A DNA stretch of 64,000 bases, taken from NCBI RefSeq assembly GCF_001518815.1, contig NZ_CP013987.1, forward strand, positions 3,122,501 to 3,186,500, given 5' to 3'. This document shows, in pieces, positions 2,006 to 58,191 of this stretch. The notes beneath the pieces were generated by a model, which was not told the DNA's origin, made no database searches, and saw only the letters and a program-made list of their open reading frames with translations. Within the stretch, counting starts at the first letter, position 1. Each line of letters starts with the position of its first letter. This stretch comes from Pseudomonas oryzihabitans (GTDB lineage: Bacteria; Pseudomonadota; Gammaproteobacteria; Pseudomonadales; Pseudomonadaceae). Both the position numbers and the translations under genes were made by a program.

Positions 2006-4840
2006 ATGGCGTCACATCAACCGGGACAACGCTGGATCAGTGACAGCGAGGCCGAACTGGGCCTGGGAACCATCCTGGCCCTGGACGGCCGCCTGCTCAC
2101 GGTGCTCTATCCAGCCACCGGTGAGACGCGCCAGTATGCCCAGCGCAATGCGCCCCTGACCCGGGTGCGCTTCGCCCCGGGCGACGAGGTGACGCATTTC
2201 GAGGGCTGGAAGCTCACCGTGCGGGAGGTCTCCGAAGAGGATGGCCTGCTGACCTATCACGGCTTCACGGCGGAGCGCGAGGCACGCAGCGTGCCCGAGG
2301 CCCAGCTGTCGAACTTCATCCAGTTCCGCCTGGCCAGCGATCGCCTGTTCGCCGGGCAGATCGATCCCCTGCCCTGGTTCGGCCTGCGCTATCACACCCA
2401 CGAGCACCGCAACCGCCTGCTGCAGTCCAGCCTCTGGGGCCTGGGCGGCGTCCGCGCCCAGCCGATCCCGCACCAGCTGCACATCGCCCGTAGCGTGGCC
2501 GACCGGGTCGCGCCACGCGTCCTGCTGGCCGACGAAGTGGGCCTGGGCAAGACCATCGAGGCCGGTCTGGTGATCCATCGCCAGCTCCTCAGCGGTCGCG
2601 CCAGCCGGGTGCTGATCCTGGTCCCGGAAAATCTCCAGCACCAGTGGCTGGTGGAGATGCGCCGCCGCTTCAACCTGGAAGTCGCGCTGTTCGACGCCGA
2701 GCGCTTCATGGCCAGCGAAGACGGCAATCCCTTCGAGGATGCCCAGCTCGCCCTGGTCTCCCTGGACTGGCTGGTGCGCGACGAAAAGGCCCAGGATGCC
2801 GCCTTCGCCGCCGGTTGGGACCTGCTGGTGGTCGACGAGGCCCACCACCTGGTCTGGCACCCCGAGGGCGCCAGCCGCGAATACAGCCTGGTCGAACAAC
2901 TGGGTGAGGTCATCCCCGGAGTACTGCTGCTCACCGCGACCCCCGAGCAGCTGGGCCAGGACAGCCACTTCGCTCGTCTGCGCCTGCTCGATCCCAGCCG
3001 CTTCCATGACTTCGCCGCCTTCCAGCAGGAGTCCCAGCACTACCGCCCGGTCGCCGAAGCCGTGCAGGAACTGCTCGATGCCGGCGCCCTGAGCCCGGCG
3101 GCCCAGGACGCCATCGGTGGCTTCCTCGGCCAGGAAGGCGAGACCCTGCTGGCCGCTGCGGCCGCCGGTGATGCCGATGCCCGTGCCCGCCTGGTCCGCG
3201 AACTGCTGGATCGCCACGGCACCGGCCGCGTGCTGTTCCGCAACACCCGCGCCGCGGTCAAGGGCTTTCCCGAGCGCGAATTGCATGCCCATGCCCTGCC
3301 CTTCCCGGATGCCTATCTGGACGAAGGCGTCATGCCCGGCCAGTCACTGCAACCGGAAACCGAATTCGCGCCGGAAGACGACAACGATCGCTGGTGGCGC
3401 CACGACGGCCGCGTCGAATGGCTGATCGACACCCTCAAGGCGATCAAGCCGCACAAGGTGCTGGTCATCTGCGCGCGCATGGAAACCGCCCTGGACCTGG
3501 AAGATGCCCTGCGGCTGAAGTCCGGCATCCCGACCACGGTGTTCCACGAGGGCATGAGCATCCTCGAACGCGACCGCGCCGCCGCCTACTTCGCCGATGA
3601 GGAATTCGGCGCCCAGGTGCTGATCTGTTCCGAGATCGGCAGTGAAGGCCGCAACTTCCAGTTCGCCCACCACCTGGTGCTGTTCGACCTGCCGGCCCAC
3701 CCGGACCTGCTGGAGCAGCGCATCGGCCGTCTGGACCGGATCGGCCAGCGCCACACCATCCAGCTGCACGTGCCCTACCTCGAAGGCAGCCGCCAGGAGC
3801 GGCAGTTCCAGTGGTACCACCAGGCGCTCAACGCCTTCCTGGCCACCTCGCCCACCGGCAGCGCCCTGCAGGCGCGCTTCGCCGGCGAGCTGGACGAGCA
3901 ACTGGCCGGTGGCGACGACGCCGCCTGGCAGACCCTGCTGGAACAGGGCGCCGAAGCCCGTGCCACCCTGGAAACCGAGCTGCACAACGGCCGTGACCGC
4001 TTGCTGGAACTCAACTCCTCTGGCGCCGGTGCCGGCGAGCAACTGGTCGAGGACATCCTCGAACAGGACGACCAGTTCGCCCTGCCGATGTACATGGAAG
4101 AGCTGTTCAATGCCTTTGGCATCGACAGCGAGGACCATTCCGACAACGCCCTGATCCTCAAGCCCAGCGAGAAGATGCTCGACGCCGGCTTCCCCCTCGG
4201 CGACGACGAAGGCGTGACCATCACCTACGACCGTAACGTGGCCCTGGTCCGCGAGGACATGCAGTTCCTGACCTGGGAACACCCCATGGCCCAGGGCGGC
4301 ATGGACCTGGTGATGTCCGGCTCCATGGGCAACACCGCCGTGGCGCTGATCAAGAACAAGGCGCTCAAGCCGGGCACCGTGCTGCTGGAACTGATCTACA
4401 TCAGCGAGGCGGTGGCGCCGCGCGCCCTGCAGCTGGGTCGCTACCTGCCACCGCTGGCGATTCGCTGCCTGCTGGACGCCAACGGCAACGACCTGGCCGC
4501 CCGGGTGGCCTTCGAGACCCTCAACGATCAATTGGAAAGCGTGCCGCGCACCAGCGCCAACAAGTTCGTCCAGGCCCAGCGCGACTCCCTGGCCAAGCTG
4601 ATCGGCGGCGGCGAAGGCAAGGCCCTGCCCCGCCACGAGGAACGCGTCGCCAAGGCGCGCCAGGCGTACCTCTCGGGCATGGACGAGGAAATCGCCCGCC
4701 TGGAGGCCCTGCGCGCGGTCAACTCCAGCGTCCGCCAGGACGAGATCGACCGGCTGCGCCAGCAGCGCGAAGAAGGCCTGACCTACCTGGACAAGGCTTC
4801 GCTGCGCCTGGAAGCCATTCGGGTGCTGGTGGCGGGTTGA
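2006..4840 (+). CDS. rapA: RNA polymerase recycling ATPase RapA (HepA)
   Basis: RapA is a Swi2/Snf2-family ATPase that binds RNA polymerase and helps release it from stalled post-termination complexes. The 944-residue length fits the family. N-terminal Tudor-like domains occupy about residues 1-110. Motif I is [14 protein letters not shown] near residue 175, the DEAH box is VVDEAHHL near 280 and LLTATPEQL is motif III. The C-terminal helicase lobe contains [13 protein letters not shown] and [12 protein letters not shown] (motifs V and VI). A long C-terminal RapA-specific region follows. A perfect palindrome just after the stop likely terminates it. Confidence 0.97.
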
Positions 4841-51893: not shown

Positions 51894-52274
51894 ATGTCCT
51901 TGATCCAAGAGTACCGTCAAACCGAAGCTGCCATTGAAGAATTGAAGCAACGCTTGGAACAGTTGAACACTGATGAGCGTCTGCAGAAAGAGCTCGAGTT
52001 CGAAAAACAGCTACGTGCCCTGCTAGGCGAACACAACAAGTCGCTTCGCGACGTCATTGCCGTTCTGGACACAGAAGCCGGCATCAAAAGCACCGATCGC
52101 AGGAGTAACTCTGCCGCTGCAGCACAGCAGCGGCGGCCCCGCTCGTTGAAACGCTATAAGCACCCAGAAACTGGCGAAGTCATCGAAACTAAGGGTGGCA
52201 ACCACAAGATACTGAAAGCCTGGAAAGCTGAGCACGGCGCCGACGTAGTCGAAGGCTGGCTTCAGAGCGAGTAA
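51894..52274 (+). CDS. mvaT: H-NS-family silencer, MvaT type
   Basis: A 126-residue xenogeneic silencer of the Pseudomonas MvaT/MvaU family, which binds AT-rich foreign DNA. The N-terminal coiled-coil oligomerisation part (MSLIQEYRQTEAAIEELKQR ... FEKQLRALL, SLRDVIAVLD) is typical. The C-terminal DNA-binding region has KRYKHPETGEVIETKGGNHK and LKAWKAEHG. It resembles MvaT more than MvaU. The gene may be an extra copy located in this accessory zone. GGAGGAG six bases upstream supports the start. Confidence 0.93.
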   Translation: MSLIQEYRQTEAAIEELKQRLEQLNTDERLQKELEFEKQLRALLGEHNKSLRDVIAVLDTEAGIKSTDRRSNSAAAAQQRRPRSLKRYKHPETGEVIETKGGNHKILKAWKAEHGADVVEGWLQSE

Positions 52275-52439
52275 TCACCTCCCAGCGCCGCATCAAGCAT
52301 GCGACTCATACCAAGGTTGAGTCGCTGCACTATCAGTACTTCTGATGTTCCCGTAGGGAAAGCTCAACGCATCAGTAGTCGCCGCTTCGCTTCTACCGTT
52401 CGTCGGTGTCAAGCTTGCTGGGAACCCTTTCGCTGATTA

Positions 52440-52455
52440 CTGTCTATCCATACAG
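52440..52455. promoter_or_regulatory. LexA/SOS box
   Basis: CTGTCTATCCATACAG is a perfect CTGT-N8-ACAG SOS box. It lies 24 bases before the first ATG of the five-gene imuA-imuB-dnaE2 unit. LexA control of this mutasome operon is well established in Pseudomonas. Confidence 0.9.
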
Positions 52456-52478
52456 TACCCTGAAAGGAGGTTTTCCCC

Positions 52479-52598
52479 ATGTCCATTTCGCGCCCCATCC
52501 CTCGTCTCTGCCACGGTTGTCCCGGTCGTTCTGTCGAGTACCAGAAGGTCATGGCTTCAGGGATTGAGCAGGTGGGCCGCTATGGACATGCTTGGTGA
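52479..52598 (+). CDS. First gene of the SOS operon: 39-residue Cys-containing peptide
   Basis: ATG preceded by AAAGGAGG and only 24 bases from the LexA box. The peptide MSISRPIPRLCHGCPGRSVE continues to GRYGHAW and contains a CHGC pair that could bind a metal. Its last codons overlap the start of the next ORF, so the two are likely coupled. Short and unrecognised, but the strong ribosome site and the position behind an SOS box argue that it is translated. Confidence 0.55.
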   Translation: MSISRPIPRLCHGCPGRSVEYQKVMASGIEQVGRYGHAW

Positions 52599-53025
52599 TG
52601 AGCAGGACACCTTCGAACAGCAGCAGTCCCTCTTCCGTCCTACGGAGCTGATGTACTGCCGCAACCTTGTTGATCTGCTGACTGAAGAACTGGACCAGGT
52701 GCGTCAGTGCTTGGGGCAAGCCCAGCGCGCCAATCGGATTTTGGTCGCTGAGCGGGATGTCCTGACGGCGGAGGTACAGCGCCACCGACTGCGCTACGTC
52801 CAGTTCGTACAGGAAGAGAACCAACGCCACGTGCCACGGGGTGACCGGCTCATTCCGGACGACCGCGGCGACCCACTCTCGCGTGCCCAGTGTCATATCC
52901 TGCGGCTGGAGTCGATGAACTCCATCCTGCACGCAGACCTCTTCAAGGTACGCGCGCAGCTGCAGATCCTGCTTACCGAACGAGACAGCACGCCGTCGGC
53001 GCCGACGGGGGTGCAGCATGGATAA
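52582..53025 (+). CDS. SOS operon coiled-coil protein, unknown
   Basis: The 147-residue product begins MDMLGDEQDTFEQQQSLFRP. It is mostly helical with heptad-like stretches (DLLTEELDQVRQCLGQAQR; LRLESMNSILHADLFKVRAQLQILLTER), suggesting a coiled coil. Its end overlaps the imuA start by eight bases, and it lies in the SOS-box operon. I recognise no domain. By position it may serve the ImuA-ImuB-DnaE2 mutasome. ATG 52564 would also be in frame; 52582 follows the coupled stop better. Confidence 0.65.
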   Translation: MDMLGDEQDTFEQQQSLFRPTELMYCRNLVDLLTEELDQVRQCLGQAQRANRILVAERDVLTAEVQRHRLRYVQFVQEENQRHVPRGDRLIPDDRGDPLSRAQCHILRLESMNSILHADLFKVRAQLQILLTERDSTPSAPTGVQHG

Positions 53026-53650
53026 CGCCGCCACCAATGTCGTTGCGCTTGACTCCCTGCTAGACAGTCGCCGCGTATGGCGCGGGCAGAGTCCTCACGT
53101 CGACGATGCCAGCACCCAGCCAACCGGGCACGCCTCGCTCGACGCCCAACTGCCCCTTGGTGGTTGGCCTGATGCAGCGCTCACCGAAATCCTGAGCGAG
53201 CGACCGGGCCTGGGTGAGCTGACCCTCGTGTGGCCAACACTGGCGCGCCTTACTACCGCCGGCGAACGCGTCGTGCTGATCGCCCCTCCCTACCTGCTCT
53301 ACCCGCATGCGTGGCTGCAGGCCGGCGTTGATCTTAGCCGGCTGAGCGTCATTCAGGTCCAGGGCAAGGACGTGCTGTGGGCGGCAGAGCAGTGCCTGCG
53401 CTCCGGTAGCTGCGGAGCAGTGCTCTGCTGGCCAAGCCGGGCGGACGATCGCGCGCTGCGCCGACTGCAGGTTGCTGCAGAGACGGGGCAGACCCTTGCC
53501 TTTGCGTTCCGCCACCAGCGGGAAGCCGTCAATGCCTCACCTGCAGCGCTTCGCCTGGTGCTCGAGGGTTCGCCTCAGCAGCTGCGGGTGCTCAAGTGCC
53601 GCGGCGGCAACCCACCGGCGACTGCGCTGGCGTATCAGGTCTGGCATTGA
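53018..53650 (+). CDS. imuA: Mutasome protein ImuA
   Basis: A 210-residue RecA-like, SulA/ImuA family protein required with ImuB and DnaE2 for damage-induced mutagenesis. Recognisable stretches are ASLDAQLPLGGWPDAALTEIL, the RecA-like core with the strand ERVVLIAPPYLLYP, and CGAVLCWPSRADDRALRRLQ. A C-terminal RLVLEGSPQQLRVLKCRGG tail follows, common to ImuA. The ATG overlaps the upstream coiled-coil gene's stop. imuB starts 12 bases after its stop. Confidence 0.9.
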   Translation: MDNAATNVVALDSLLDSRRVWRGQSPHVDDASTQPTGHASLDAQLPLGGWPDAALTEILSERPGLGELTLVWPTLARLTTAGERVVLIAPPYLLYPHAWLQAGVDLSRLSVIQVQGKDVLWAAEQCLRSGSCGAVLCWPSRADDRALRRLQVAAETGQTLAFAFRHQREAVNASPAALRLVLEGSPQQLRVLKCRGGNPPATALAYQVWH

Positions 53651-53662
53651 GGGACGACCGCC

Positions 53663-55078
53663 ATGAAATGGGCCTGCATTTTTTTCCCGCAGTTCGCGTT
53701 GGACGGTGTGCTGCGCAACTGTCCTGACCCAGACGAACCCCTGGTACTGCTCCACGGGCCTATCCAGCGCAGGATCATCAAGGCGGCGAACCCGGCGGCG
53801 TTGGCGCTGGGGGTCCGGCCGGATATGACCTACACCGCTGCCCAAGCAATCTGCCCGCGGTTTGCGACGGTGGAGTACGACGAGGCGGCGTTGCGGCGCC
53901 AGCACGAGCTGCTCGCAGCCTGGGCCTATGGCTTCAGCTCCCAGGTCAGCCTGCACTTTGCCGACGCCTTGGTGCTTGAGGTGCAGTCGAGCCTGCCGCT
54001 CTTCGGCCCATGGCCCAGGTTTGAATCGCGCCTGCGCCAGGAGCTCACGGCGCTCGGCTTCGGCCATCGGATCACCCTGGCACCCAACCCGGTCGCTGCC
54101 CGGGTGTTGGCCAACGCCGGCGACAGCCTGGCAGTTCGGGACGACGCAGGCCTAGCCAGCGCGATGCGGACGCTGCCGGTGGCGCTCTTGGGCTTCGAGC
54201 CAGAGATCGTGCAGACCCTGAGTCGCATGGGGCTACGTCAGCTCAGCCAGGTGCTGGCGCTGCCCCGGGCGCAGCTTGCCCGACGCTTCCCCCTGAGCCT
54301 GCTCAACCACCTCGATCAGATGCTCGGCAGCAAGGTCCTGCCCATGGAGTTTTTTCTGCCACCGACCACCTTCACGCTCCGCATCGAGCTCAACTTCGAT
54401 GTCGAGTCGACCCAGGCGCTGCTGTTCCCGCTGCGTCGCCTGACCTCGGATCTGGCCACATACCTCGCCGGCCGGGATATGGGGGCGCAACGCTTCACCC
54501 TGCGCCTAGAACATCGCGAGGCGCCGACAACCGAGATCGTTGTGGGTCTGCTGGCACCCGAGCGTGACCCGGCGCTGTTGTTCGAATTTGCCCGGGGCCG
54601 TCTGGAGCCCACCCAGGTGGTTGAGCCAGTGCTTGCCATCGGCCTGGTCGCCGACGAGCTACCCTCGTTCGTCCCTCAGCACCGCGGCCTCTTCGATGAG
54701 CGTCCGCAACAGACCATGAGCTGGGAGCAGCTGCGCGAGCGACTTCGGTCGCGCCTGGGCGACGACGCGGTCTATGCGATCGGCGCCCAGGGCGATCACC
54801 GGCCGGAGCGGTCCTGGCGGCGCGATACGCCTTCGCTTGCACTCCAAGCATTAGGACCGAATCGGCGGCCTGGCTGGCTGCTGCCGGCGCCGGAGCCTCT
54901 GGATGTCGATCAGCCACGCGTCCTAAGCGGGCCGGAGCGTATCGAGAGTGGCTGGTGGGACGGTGAGGATGCCCGTCGGGACTACTACGTGTTGGAGCTC
55001 GCCGACGGACGCACGGCCTGGGCCTTCCAATCGCCAGCCGAAGGGCCGGGCTGGTGGGTGCAGGGGTGGTTTGCGTGA
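53663..55078 (+). CDS. imuB: Y-family polymerase-like mutasome protein ImuB
   Basis: The 471-residue protein has the Y-family polymerase fold but is known in this family to lack polymerase activity and to act as a hub that binds the sliding clamp, ImuA and DnaE2. The start [18 protein letters not shown] has no acidic metal-binding residue where active polymerases have one. Conserved ATGs and segments are [35 protein letters not shown]-type sequence and [25 protein letters not shown]. Its stop overlaps the dnaE2 GTG by four bases. Confidence 0.92.
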
Positions 55079-58000
55079 CACCCGGCTATGCGGAGCTGCA
55101 CTGCCTGTCGAACTTCAGCTTCCAGCGCGGTGCCTCCAGCGTCGATCAGCTGTTCGAACGGGCCAAAGCCATGGGCTATGAGGCGCTGGCCATCACAGAC
55201 GAGTGCACCCTCGCCGGCATCGTGCGCGCCTGGCAGGCGTCGGAGAAGCACGACGTCCGGCTGATCCTGGGCGCGGAGTTTCAAGTGGCTCAGGGCCCCA
55301 AGCTGGTGCTGCTGGTAGAAGACCTGCAGGGGTACCAGCAGCTGTGCCGGCTGATTACCCTCGCCCGCCGGCGTGCGGATAAGGGCAGCTACCGGCTGCT
55401 GCGCGAGGACCTCGGCCAGGTCGCCGGCCTCGTCGCGCTTTGGGTACCGGAGCGGGGAGCGGAGGCGGAGGCAACGCGCTGGCTCTTGGAGGTGTTTCCC
55501 GACCGGCTATGGATCGCTACGGGGCTGCACTTCGATCAGGACGACCAGGTGCGGCTGCAGCAGCTTCAAGGGCTGGGGGCGGCCTTGGGCCTACCGCTGG
55601 TAGCCGCTGGCGACGTGCACATGCACTGCCGCGGGCGCCGGGCCCTGCAGGACACCATCACCGCGATCCGCCATCACGTCCCGGTAGCTGAAGCCGGCCA
55701 GCTGCTCTTTCCGAACGGGGAGCGTCACCTGCGCACTCGTGAAGCCTTGGCGAGGTGCTATCCGCCCGAGCTACTGGCGGAGACCCTGCGCGTCGCCGAG
55801 CGCTGCACCTTCAGTCTGGCCGAGCTGCGCTATCAATACCCCAGCGAGGTGGTACCGGAGGGTCATACGGCCACCAGCTGGCTGCGTGTGCTCACTGAGG
55901 AGGGCTGTGCATGGCGCTGGCCCGAGGGCGTCTCGGATCGACTGCGCGTCCAGATTGAGAAAGAGCTGCAGCTGATCGCCGTCAAGGCATACGAGAGTTA
56001 CTTCCTGACGGTGCACGACATCGTACGCTTCGCACGGCAGAAGGGAATCCTCTGCCAGGGTCGGGGCTCGGCCGCCAACTCGGCGGTCTGCTTTGCACTG
56101 GGCATTACCGAACTAGATCCAACCCGGATCAATCTCCTGTTCGAGCGTTTCATCAGCCATGAACGCGATGAGCCGCCGGACATCGACGTGGACTTCGAGC
56201 ATGACCGGCGGGAAGAGGTCATCCAGTACATCTTCCGCCGTTACGGCCGGCAGCGCGCCGCGCTCACCGCAGTGGTATCCACCTATCACGCTGCCGGCGC
56301 CGTCCGAGACGTGGCCAAAGCCCTGGGTCTTCCCCCGGATCAGATCACAGCGCTTGCAGACTGCTGTGGCCGCTGGACCGACAATCTGCCGCCACCGGCG
56401 CGCCTGCGTGAGTCGGGGTTCGATCCTGATAGTCCCCTCATTCACCGGATCCTAGTGCTCACCGGTGAATTGATCGGATTCCCGCGCCACCTCTCCCAAC
56501 ACCCGGGCGGTTTCGTCATCGCCGACCAGACGCTGGATACCCTGGTGCCGGTCGAGAACGCGGCCATGGAGGGTAGGACGGTCATCCAATGGGACAAGGA
56601 CGATCTCGATGCGATGGGCCTGCTCAAGGTCGACATCCTCGCCCTGGGCATGCTCAGCGCGCTGCGCCGGTGCTTCGACCTGGTCAAAGCTTACCGGGGC
56701 AAGGAACTGACCCTGGTGACCGTGCCTCAAGAGGACAAGCCGACCTACGCGATGATCAGCCGGGCGGACACGCTTGGCGTGTTCCAGATCGAGTCGCGTG
56801 CGCAGATGGCCATGCTGCCGCGGCTGAAGCCGCAGACCTTTTACGACCTGGTGATCGAGGTGGCTATCGTCCGGCCGGGCCCCATCCAGGGAGGGATGGT
56901 TCACCCGTACCTGCGCCGGCGGACGGGCCAGGAAGAGATCAGCTACCCGCCGGAGCTGGAGCGCGTCTTCGGCCGGACCCTGGGTGTGCCCCTGTTCCAG
57001 GAACAAGTGATGGAGCTTGCCATCCTTGCCGCCGACTACACCCCGGGGGAAGCCGATCAGCTGCGGCGCAGCATGGCGGCGTGGAAGCGTCATGGCGGAC
57101 TGGAGCCACACCGGGAGCGGCTCACCTCACGCATGCGCGCTAACGGCTACACCGCCGAGTACGCCGCGGACATCTTCCGGCAAATCGAGGGGTTCGGCAG
57201 CTACGGTTTTCCCGAATCCCATGCGGCCAGCTTCGCCCTGCTGACCTACGCGAGCTGCTGGCTCAAATGCCACGAACCGGCAGCTTTTGCTGCGGCGCTG
57301 ATTAACTCCTACCCCATGGGTTTCTACAGCCCAGACCAGATCCTGCAGGACGCCCGGCGCCACCGGTTGCAAACCCTGCCGGTGGACGTGACCTGCAGCG
57401 ACTGGGATTGCAGCCTCGAGGCTGTCGCGGATAGCCGGCAACCCGCCATCAGGATGGGGCTGCGCATGGTGCGAGGCCTGGCCGAGAAACACGGCCGCGC
57501 GGTCGAACAGGCTCGCAGGCAGCAACCGTTTCGAGATATCACAGATCTGTGCCTACGTGCCGGTCTTGATGCCAAAGCACGCGAGCACCTCGCCGATGCA
57601 GGAGCGCTTAAGGGGTTGGCTGGTCATCGCTTCCAAGCACGATGGGCAATGGCCGCAATCGAGCCACAGCTTCCGCTTTTCGCTGAGGGCGCAGTCGTTG
57701 TAGAGGAGATCCAGGAACTGGTCGCTCCCACCACGGGTGAAGACCTCCATTCCGACTATGCCTCGTTGGGTACTACCCTAGGCCCCCATCCTCTTACCCT
57801 GCTCCGCCCCGAATTCATGGCTCAGCGTCTTATGAGCTCTCGTGACCTCAAGGAGCGACGCCACGGTCAGCCAGCGCGGATCGCCGGACTGGTTGTCGGT
57901 CGGCAACGCCCAGGCACTGCCAGCGGTGTGACCTTCGTAACGCTGGAAGATGAATTCGGGATGGTGAATGTGGTGGTCTGGCGCACCCTGGCGGAGCGTC

Positions 58001-58149
58001 AGCGACGGGAGCTGGTCGCGTCTCAGCTGATGCGTGTGGATGGCACCATTGAGACGCGAGATGGGGTGCTGCATGTGGTGGCGGGTAGGCTGCAGGACAT
58101 TAGTGAGCTATTACAGGGGCTGGATACACGCAGCCGCGATTTCCACTAG
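55075..58149 (+). CDS. dnaE2: Error-prone DNA polymerase III alpha DnaE2
   Basis: A 1024-residue C-family polymerase that copies past lesions in the SOS response. The N-terminal PHP domain begins [27 protein letters not shown]. The palm carries [20 protein letters not shown] with the catalytic aspartates. [18 protein letters not shown] and [22 protein letters not shown] follow, the latter being the DnaE2 region. An OB-fold end ([30 protein letters not shown]) completes it. The GTG at 55075 overlaps the imuB stop; a longer frame to 55054 would extend into imuB. Confidence 0.95.
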
Positions 58150-58191
58150 GGACTTTACCCTTGTTATAACCAGGCCAAGTGACCGTGCTGG

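Follow-up and report, generated by a model that had tools for sequence, protein, structure and literature searches.

An accessory, mobile mutasome operon of the Pseudomonas oryzihabitans group with a probable leader ORF and a candidate clamp-binding protein ahead of imuA

In a 64-kb stretch of a 4.83 Mb chromosome of the Pseudomonas oryzihabitans group (G000:C1:3122501-3186500, hereafter the window), an imuA-imuB-dnaE2 operon is headed by two small ORFs, P1 and P2. The second of them is a real gene, kept under purifying selection near the level of imuA and imuB. The whole operon is an accessory, horizontally moving mutasome lineage of the P. oryzihabitans group which is borne by plasmids as well as by chromosomes. 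P2 carries an N-terminal QxxLF sequence similar to the motif by which proteins bind the replication sliding clamp, and on this motif rests the tentative proposal that the accessory mutasome has in P2 a partner or manager which is induced in the SOS response and binds the clamp, a serious possibility which we place just short of evenly balanced. P1 probably serves as a translated leader to which P2 is coupled.

Architecture of the Accessory Operon

All elements of the operon lie on one strand in the order LexA box, P1, P2, imuA, imuB and dnaE2 (Table 1). A reading of the sequence alone (the sequence-only reading) had already described two small ORFs between the LexA box and imuA, each overlapping its downstream neighbor, and this was confirmed with overlaps of 17 nt (P1/P2) and 8 nt (P2/imuA). 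Family scans of dnaE2 used positions 55081-58149. Just upstream of the operon and on the same strand, a gene of the MvaT/MvaU silencer family is located (51894-52274).

Table 1. Features of the accessory mutasome operon in the window.
Feature	Position in the window	Strand	Evidence or remark
Conserved promoter-proximal block, TACCGTTCGTCG...TGATTA	52394..52439	+	Similarity between copies starts nearby
LexA box, CTGTCTATCCATACAG	52440..52455	+	Box in 8/8 operon loci compared
Shine-Dalgarno of P1, AAAGGAGG	52463..52470	+	Sequence; AAAGGAGG kept in 8/8 loci
P1, 39-codon ORF, probable leader	52479..52598	+	dN/dS 0.305; 17-nt overlap with P2
Shine-Dalgarno-like AGGTGGG of P2, within the P1 3' end	52570..52576	+	Sequence
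P2, 147 aa, helical, probably coiled-coil	52582..53025	+	dN/dS 0.066; AlphaFold2
QQSLF, P2 residues 14-18, a form of the beta-clamp-binding motif	52621..52635	+	Q14, L17 and F18 invariant
imuA	53018..53650	+	NCBIfam NF033429, 225.7 bits (cutoff 150); 8-nt overlap with P2
imuB	53663..55078	+	Pfam IMS, 40.3 bits (cutoff 23.2)
dnaE2	55054..58149, ORF from first GTG (start provisional)	+	Above the NCBIfam error-prone DNA polymerase cutoff

The box at the head of the operon is the sole exact CTGT-N8-ACAG in the window. As 0.59 such matches are expected by chance, a single perfect box proves little, and its weight comes from conservation: a box stands at the equivalent place in all eight operon loci compared, 21-23 nt before P1. 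The perfect LexA box noted earlier is borne out, and an SOS box precedes the first gene of this mutasome operon, which is presumably under LexA control in the cell. The core mutasome of the same strain features a degenerate box with one mismatch (CTGTATAAATATACAT; G000:C1 at about 1,732 kb, L054:4025-4040), whereas the accessory box is perfect.

Distribution and Mobility

The core set of imuA-imuB-dnaE2, the second one in this genome, lies at G000:C1:1732706 and is devoid of P1 and P2. The accessory operon was found whole in G000, G001, G009, G012 and G003 (on the YY7 plasmid) and on NZ_CP044073. On NZ_CP044072, P1, P2, imuA and imuB are open and most of dnaE2 is gone; the gene is cut shortly after its start, beside different sequence (L002, from about position 3168 onward). 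Accessory remnants occur in G010 and G008.

A P2-type gene with QxxLF was present in 6/6 accessory operons and in none of 71 others, the latter comprising 10 core operons of the genus (from eleven rows, G010 appearing twice) and 61 operons outside the genus, which were taken from the higher-scoring ImuB rows and form a non-random sample. Likewise, similarity searches gave no P2 match in these 61 operons or in the 10 core operons. ImuB itself was matched at 1e-100 in 310 of 398 family genomes. In 44 of the 61 operons outside the genus, a LexA box lies only 20-114 nt before imuA and leaves no room for P2, and two of the 61 are cut off by a contig edge 216-283 nt upstream of imuA. Four of the six accessory operons matched by tblastn and showed QxxLF directly; for G009, which also matched, the ORF was read from an upstream start and the motif was taken from the alignment of close copies. 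The sixth, G005, was counted as accessory by the ImuB tree and has a QVILF-bearing ORF at the equivalent place. In this tree (35 rows) the diverged G005 operon joins the accessory clade with 97/91 support, on a long branch. The survey of co-occurrence suggested by the sequence-only reading accordingly ties P2 to one lineage and not to imuB in general.

Resemblance to the window copy sets in at 52360-52394 and, for those close copies that are whole, stops at 58145-58150. The flanks (1.5-3 kb in seven copies) are unrelated, except for a left flank common to the two mobI plasmids and one shared right-hand piece of 234 nt. The borders are sharp and fall just before the promoter and just after dnaE2 (window 52360-58150; L044-L048, L053, L003). 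A search for an empty site found the right flank of the window copy in only 1/12 other genomes of the genus. The operon has mobI and a partition gene of ParM/StbA type in its vicinity on two plasmids (L003 and L004, about 2.3-5.5 kb).

In G001 and G010 (L055, L057), core imuB is matched as two segments in different frames and seems broken; G001 keeps a whole accessory imuB. Decayed P2 fragments were observed in G006, G008 and G011 (L049, L050, L051), together with a decayed imuA-imuB in G008 (L056). Such fragments suggest past presence and subsequent loss of the accessory operon.

Wider searches kept returning to the same group. Profile A2 matched 11/398 family genomes, ten of them within the genus, and these ten include the decayed copies of G006, G008 and G011 and a broken copy in G010. 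A candidate relative outside the genus (G225) was dropped, its ORF being hemerythrin-like by eye, and a weak match in G012 (C2:176600) without an N-terminal QxxLF was not counted. At order level, 4/390 genomes matched, two in the genus and two (G642, G519) with short internal matches; at class level, profile A4 matched 1/369 genomes, namely its own. A search of genome contigs gave five loci, all previously located, and plasmid searches always returned the same three records, from P. oryzihabitans and P. psychrotolerans. No P2 relative was confirmed in viral contigs, and phages gave no match with the solitary copy described below as query.

P2 as a Gene and Protein

The 147-residue protein proposed earlier before imuA proved to be a real gene. 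In the six close copies (window, G001, G009 and three plasmids, with the broken G010 copy excluded), pN is 0.031 vs. a pS of 0.354, and the dN/dS of P2 is comparable to the values of imuA (0.050) and imuB (0.052). The gene is read from the ATG at 52582; an alternative TTG start would give 153 aa. The P2 of G005 is a very diverged ORF of 117 residues which was missed by tblastn at 1e-4 and found by the profile. Searches of Pfam, NCBIfam, PHROGs, PADLOC and PDB yielded no significant match for P2, with weak matches below the cutoffs only.

The AlphaFold2 model of the window protein features a short helix (residues 11-16) followed by helices 20-83 and 98-135 (pLDDT 78.3, pTM 0.36), and the same layout was predicted for the solitary homologue with helices 14-19, 23-96 and 102-153 (pLDDT 70.8, pTM 0.32), both runs drawing on one set of six sequences. 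In two of the plasmid copies the long helix is longer by 7 residues, one heptad, as expected for a coiled coil. Heptad periodicity exceeded that of shuffled sequences in two of four P2 sequences, the shuffles that did as well among 2000 numbering 38 for the window and 8 for the solitary copy, and not for the G012 operon (490) and G005 (1325). P2 is helical in the models and probably a coiled-coil protein, which would presumably be dimeric.

The QxxLF Sequence and the Role of P2

All four intact P2 lineages feature QxxLF near residue 14, in the forms QQSLF (window), QQELF (G012 operon), QQELF (solitary copy) and QVILF (G005); the sequence-only reading made no mention of it. Q14, L17 and F18 belong to the 17 invariant columns of alignment A2 (three operon lineages plus the solitary copy), and in both models the motif sits just before the long predicted helix. 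It is lost in the decayed G006 copy. In the available part of its description, the bacterial clamp motif is QL(S/D)LF and given as C-terminal (PMC9690074); QQSLF fits it at 4/5 positions, and the motif of P2 is N-terminal. By chance, about 0.007 QxxLF would be expected per N terminus of 25 residues. In a background of 142 ORFs (65,408 aa, many of them mutually orthologous), QxxLF occurred within the first 40 residues of 1/142 ORFs, and Qx[SDE]LF occurred once, in P2 itself. The motif is a short one, and attention was drawn to it only in hindsight. The 23 QxxLF strings of this background comprised eight QLPLF in DnaE2, seven QxLLF in ImuB, one in P2 and seven elsewhere. In the core and accessory operons scanned, QLPLF of DnaE2 (residue 872 of the 1031-aa frame) and QxLLF of ImuB (residue 251) are conserved. 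As ImuB here also holds such a conserved string, a QxxLF need not mean clamp binding, and as DnaE2 already has QLPLF, a further contact with the clamp may be unnecessary for the mutasome.

The sequence-only reading had proposed both small proteins as new mutasome partners or regulators and had suggested a pulldown with the sliding clamp. For P2 the idea of a new partner is reasonable, since it has no significant family match and is linked to one ImuA-ImuB-DnaE2 lineage, and its clamp-motif-like sequence fits the suggested pulldown; the idea is not supported for P1 as a CHGC protein.

Instead of a clamp-binding partner, P2 could be a structural component of the mutasome whose helices contact ImuA, ImuB or DnaE2, with QxxLF being incidental. 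The overlap with imuA, the confinement to one ImuB lineage and the helical models would all suit such a subunit, but few residues of the protein are as well conserved as those of the motif, even in the solitary copy with no adjacent mutasome, and we consider this explanation unlikely.

This solitary homologue (G012:C2:15465-15965) comprises 166 residues and starts 21 nt after a LexA box of its own. Its neighbors include a tyrosine integrase, a resolvase and a replication-initiator-like protein, and no match to imuA, imuB or dnaE2 was found in the 14 kb searched around it (L052). With its own LexA box, P2 may be induced on its own, and its activity may not wholly depend on the mutasome. This arrangement would also be expected if P2 were a free-standing, SOS-induced clamp blocker acting as a replication brake like Caulobacter SocB, for which adjacency to imuABC would merely be a convenient means of co-induction; SocB, according to the accessible text, binds the clamp by the usual clamp motif and stops elongation (PMC9690074). 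Nevertheless, P2 overlaps imuA in the accessory operons and has spread with imuABC, and only one intact solitary copy was found; the blocker is likewise considered unlikely. The main proposal, in which P2 binds the clamp on behalf of the accessory mutasome, draws on the purifying selection, the restriction of P2 to accessory operons, the grouping of G005 with them in the ImuB tree, the invariant motif residues and their place before the long helix, the one-heptad insertion, the constant spacings around P1 and the LexA box of the solitary copy. Against it stand the low pTM of both models, the two P2 sequences that did not pass the heptad test, the strong divergence of the G005 gene and its long branch, and plasmid NZ_CP044072, where P2 persists with most of dnaE2 lost. 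It is retained as a tentative proposal.

P1 as a Probable Leader

The 39-aa ORF P1 follows the Shine-Dalgarno AAAGGAGG, and its overlap with P2 is exactly 17 nt in 8/8 loci, in which P1 is 39 or 62 aa long. The Shine-Dalgarno-like sequence of P2 varies among the three operon lineages as AGGTGGG, AGGTAGG and AAGGTAGGG. Codons 29-39 of P1, which contain the P2 ribosome site and the overlap, are nearly fixed in close copies, and across lineages the cysteines and most other residues of P1 vary. The CHGC highlighted by the sequence-only reading did not hold up as a conserved motif of P1: it is broken in 3/7 close copies (one without the second Cys, two without the Gly), its counterparts being CHGRP in NZ_CP044072, CHRCP in the other two plasmids and RHTAP in the G012 operon, whose P1 contains no Cys at all. 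In G005, P1 is a 62-codon ORF of different sequence without CHGC. A role of P1 in binding zinc or another metal was rejected for this variability of the cysteines, among close copies as well as lineages.

The fixed overlap, the retention of codons 29-39 and the variable CHGC point to a leader in which the act of translation is more important than the peptide it yields, and P1 would thereby be translationally coupled to P2. Were P1 a functional micropeptide instead, metal-binding or other, its dN/dS below 1 in the close copies (synonymous change is also low, 0.18 vs. 0.35 for P2, both figures stemming from pooled and hence non-independent pairs) would be accounted for; the breakage or absence of CHGC and the coincidence of the conserved codons with the P2 ribosome site and overlap make this quite improbable.

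A hairpin over P1 was favorable in a consensus fold. Whole-fold z-scores of five P1 regions were -1.18, 0.66, -0.46, -0.04 and -2.11. Pairing of the first 48 nt of P1 with the P2 start was reached by 3, 3, 23, 16 and 8 of 200 dinucleotide shuffles (window, NZ_CP044072, YY7, G012 and G005, respectively), and by 19, 51 and 174 of 300 sequences in a synonymous control which keeps the P1 protein (window, G012 and G005). Pairing was thus stronger than in most dinucleotide shuffles, but not clearly stronger than in the synonymous versions, and this stricter control removed most of the hairpin signal; Rfam gave no match. A hairpin gating P2 is possible.

Proposed Mechanism and Significance

If P2 is a clamp-binding partner, release of LexA would induce the accessory operon, and a ribosome loading at the strong Shine-Dalgarno of P1 would finish P1 and thereby reach the start of P2, which lies within P1 by 17 nt, so that P2 would be made in step with induction. 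Its N-terminal QxxLF would then bind the hydrophobic cleft of the replication sliding clamp. By holding this cleft during damage, P2 could allow the mutagenic ImuA-ImuB-DnaE2 rather than the replicase to gain access, and this presumed effect on polymerase exchange would resemble the role of UmuD in managing Pol V, realized via an unrelated fold.

Were this true, the mutasome would have a fourth component in the form of a clamp-motif protein dedicated to it and co-expressed with it, and polymerase exchange could be addressed directly. A further-reaching version is conceivable although rather unlikely: a mobile mutasome brings its own clamp manager, a coiled-coil protein of an origin separate from that of UmuD, which serves DnaE2 in the way that UmuD serves its polymerase and also moves by itself within an integrative island. 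In that case, the choice of polymerase after DNA damage in a newly entered host would lie with a mobile element.

Comparison with Known Systems

The accessory operon shares the imuA-imuB-dnaE2 order, the LexA box and the overlapping or closely spaced genes with ImuABC operons of the proteobacterial type, and differs from them in the two extra ORFs before imuA. In P. putida, the lexA2-imuA-imuB-imuC operon also has an extra gene that ends at the start of imuA; there, however, it encodes a LexA repressor, and here a helical protein without significant match to LexA. The sequence-only reading was right that the window operon holds no lexA2 ORF, but this absence is unremarkable, since 44 of the 61 sampled operons outside the genus also lack the gene and P. 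aeruginosa, in the available text, has a single lexA (PMC5261740). A regulator (e.g., of LexA, RecA or transcription) standing in for lexA2 and taking no part in polymerase exchange is very improbable for P2, which occupies the place that lexA2 takes before imuA in 15/61 operons outside the genus but has no significant match to a DNA-binding family.

Similar to the proposal for P2, UmuD is a small SOS-induced partner encoded with its polymerase, and its N-terminal arm contacts the clamp. P2, in contrast, is helical in the models and matches no UmuD or peptidase family, a LexA/UmuD-type peptidase domain being absent at E up to 1 in Pfam and NCBIfam. Translated leaders that are coupled to a following gene are a known class, with which P1 shares a strong ribosome site and a short ORF overlapping the next start; a literature search for such a leader in an SOS mutagenesis operon listed one paper, on integrons. 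UmuD and UmuC are described as acting in a checkpoint (PMC3901139, as far as the available text goes). SocB can be set beside P2, by its description in the text at hand, as another protein with a clamp motif (PMC9690074).

In the accessible portions of three papers, the mutasome partners named are lexA, ImuB-C, SRAP, YolD and RecA, and P2 is not among them (PMC12926913, PMC6511836, PMC3765255). In the open-access literature searched, the titles, abstract openings and passages covered describe no P2-like gene. In mycobacteria, the mutasome reaches the clamp via a motif in ImuB itself (PMC10421592, available text), and the polymerase is said, in the part at hand, to lack a clamp motif (PMC3901139). 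Unlike this polymerase, DnaE2 here has its own QLPLF, and P2 need not be the sole clamp contact.

Mobile mutasomes have precedents in imuA2B2C2 of pRalta, likewise with a LexA box, and in ICEPni2, and the available text mentions no extra genes for either (PMC4151985, PMC7466150). Carried by plasmids and found at several unlike sites in chromosomes, the accessory operon is also relevant to the way in which an acquired mutasome increases mutation in its recipient, an effect which, according to the accessible part of the report, was earlier shown for pRalta (PMC4151985).
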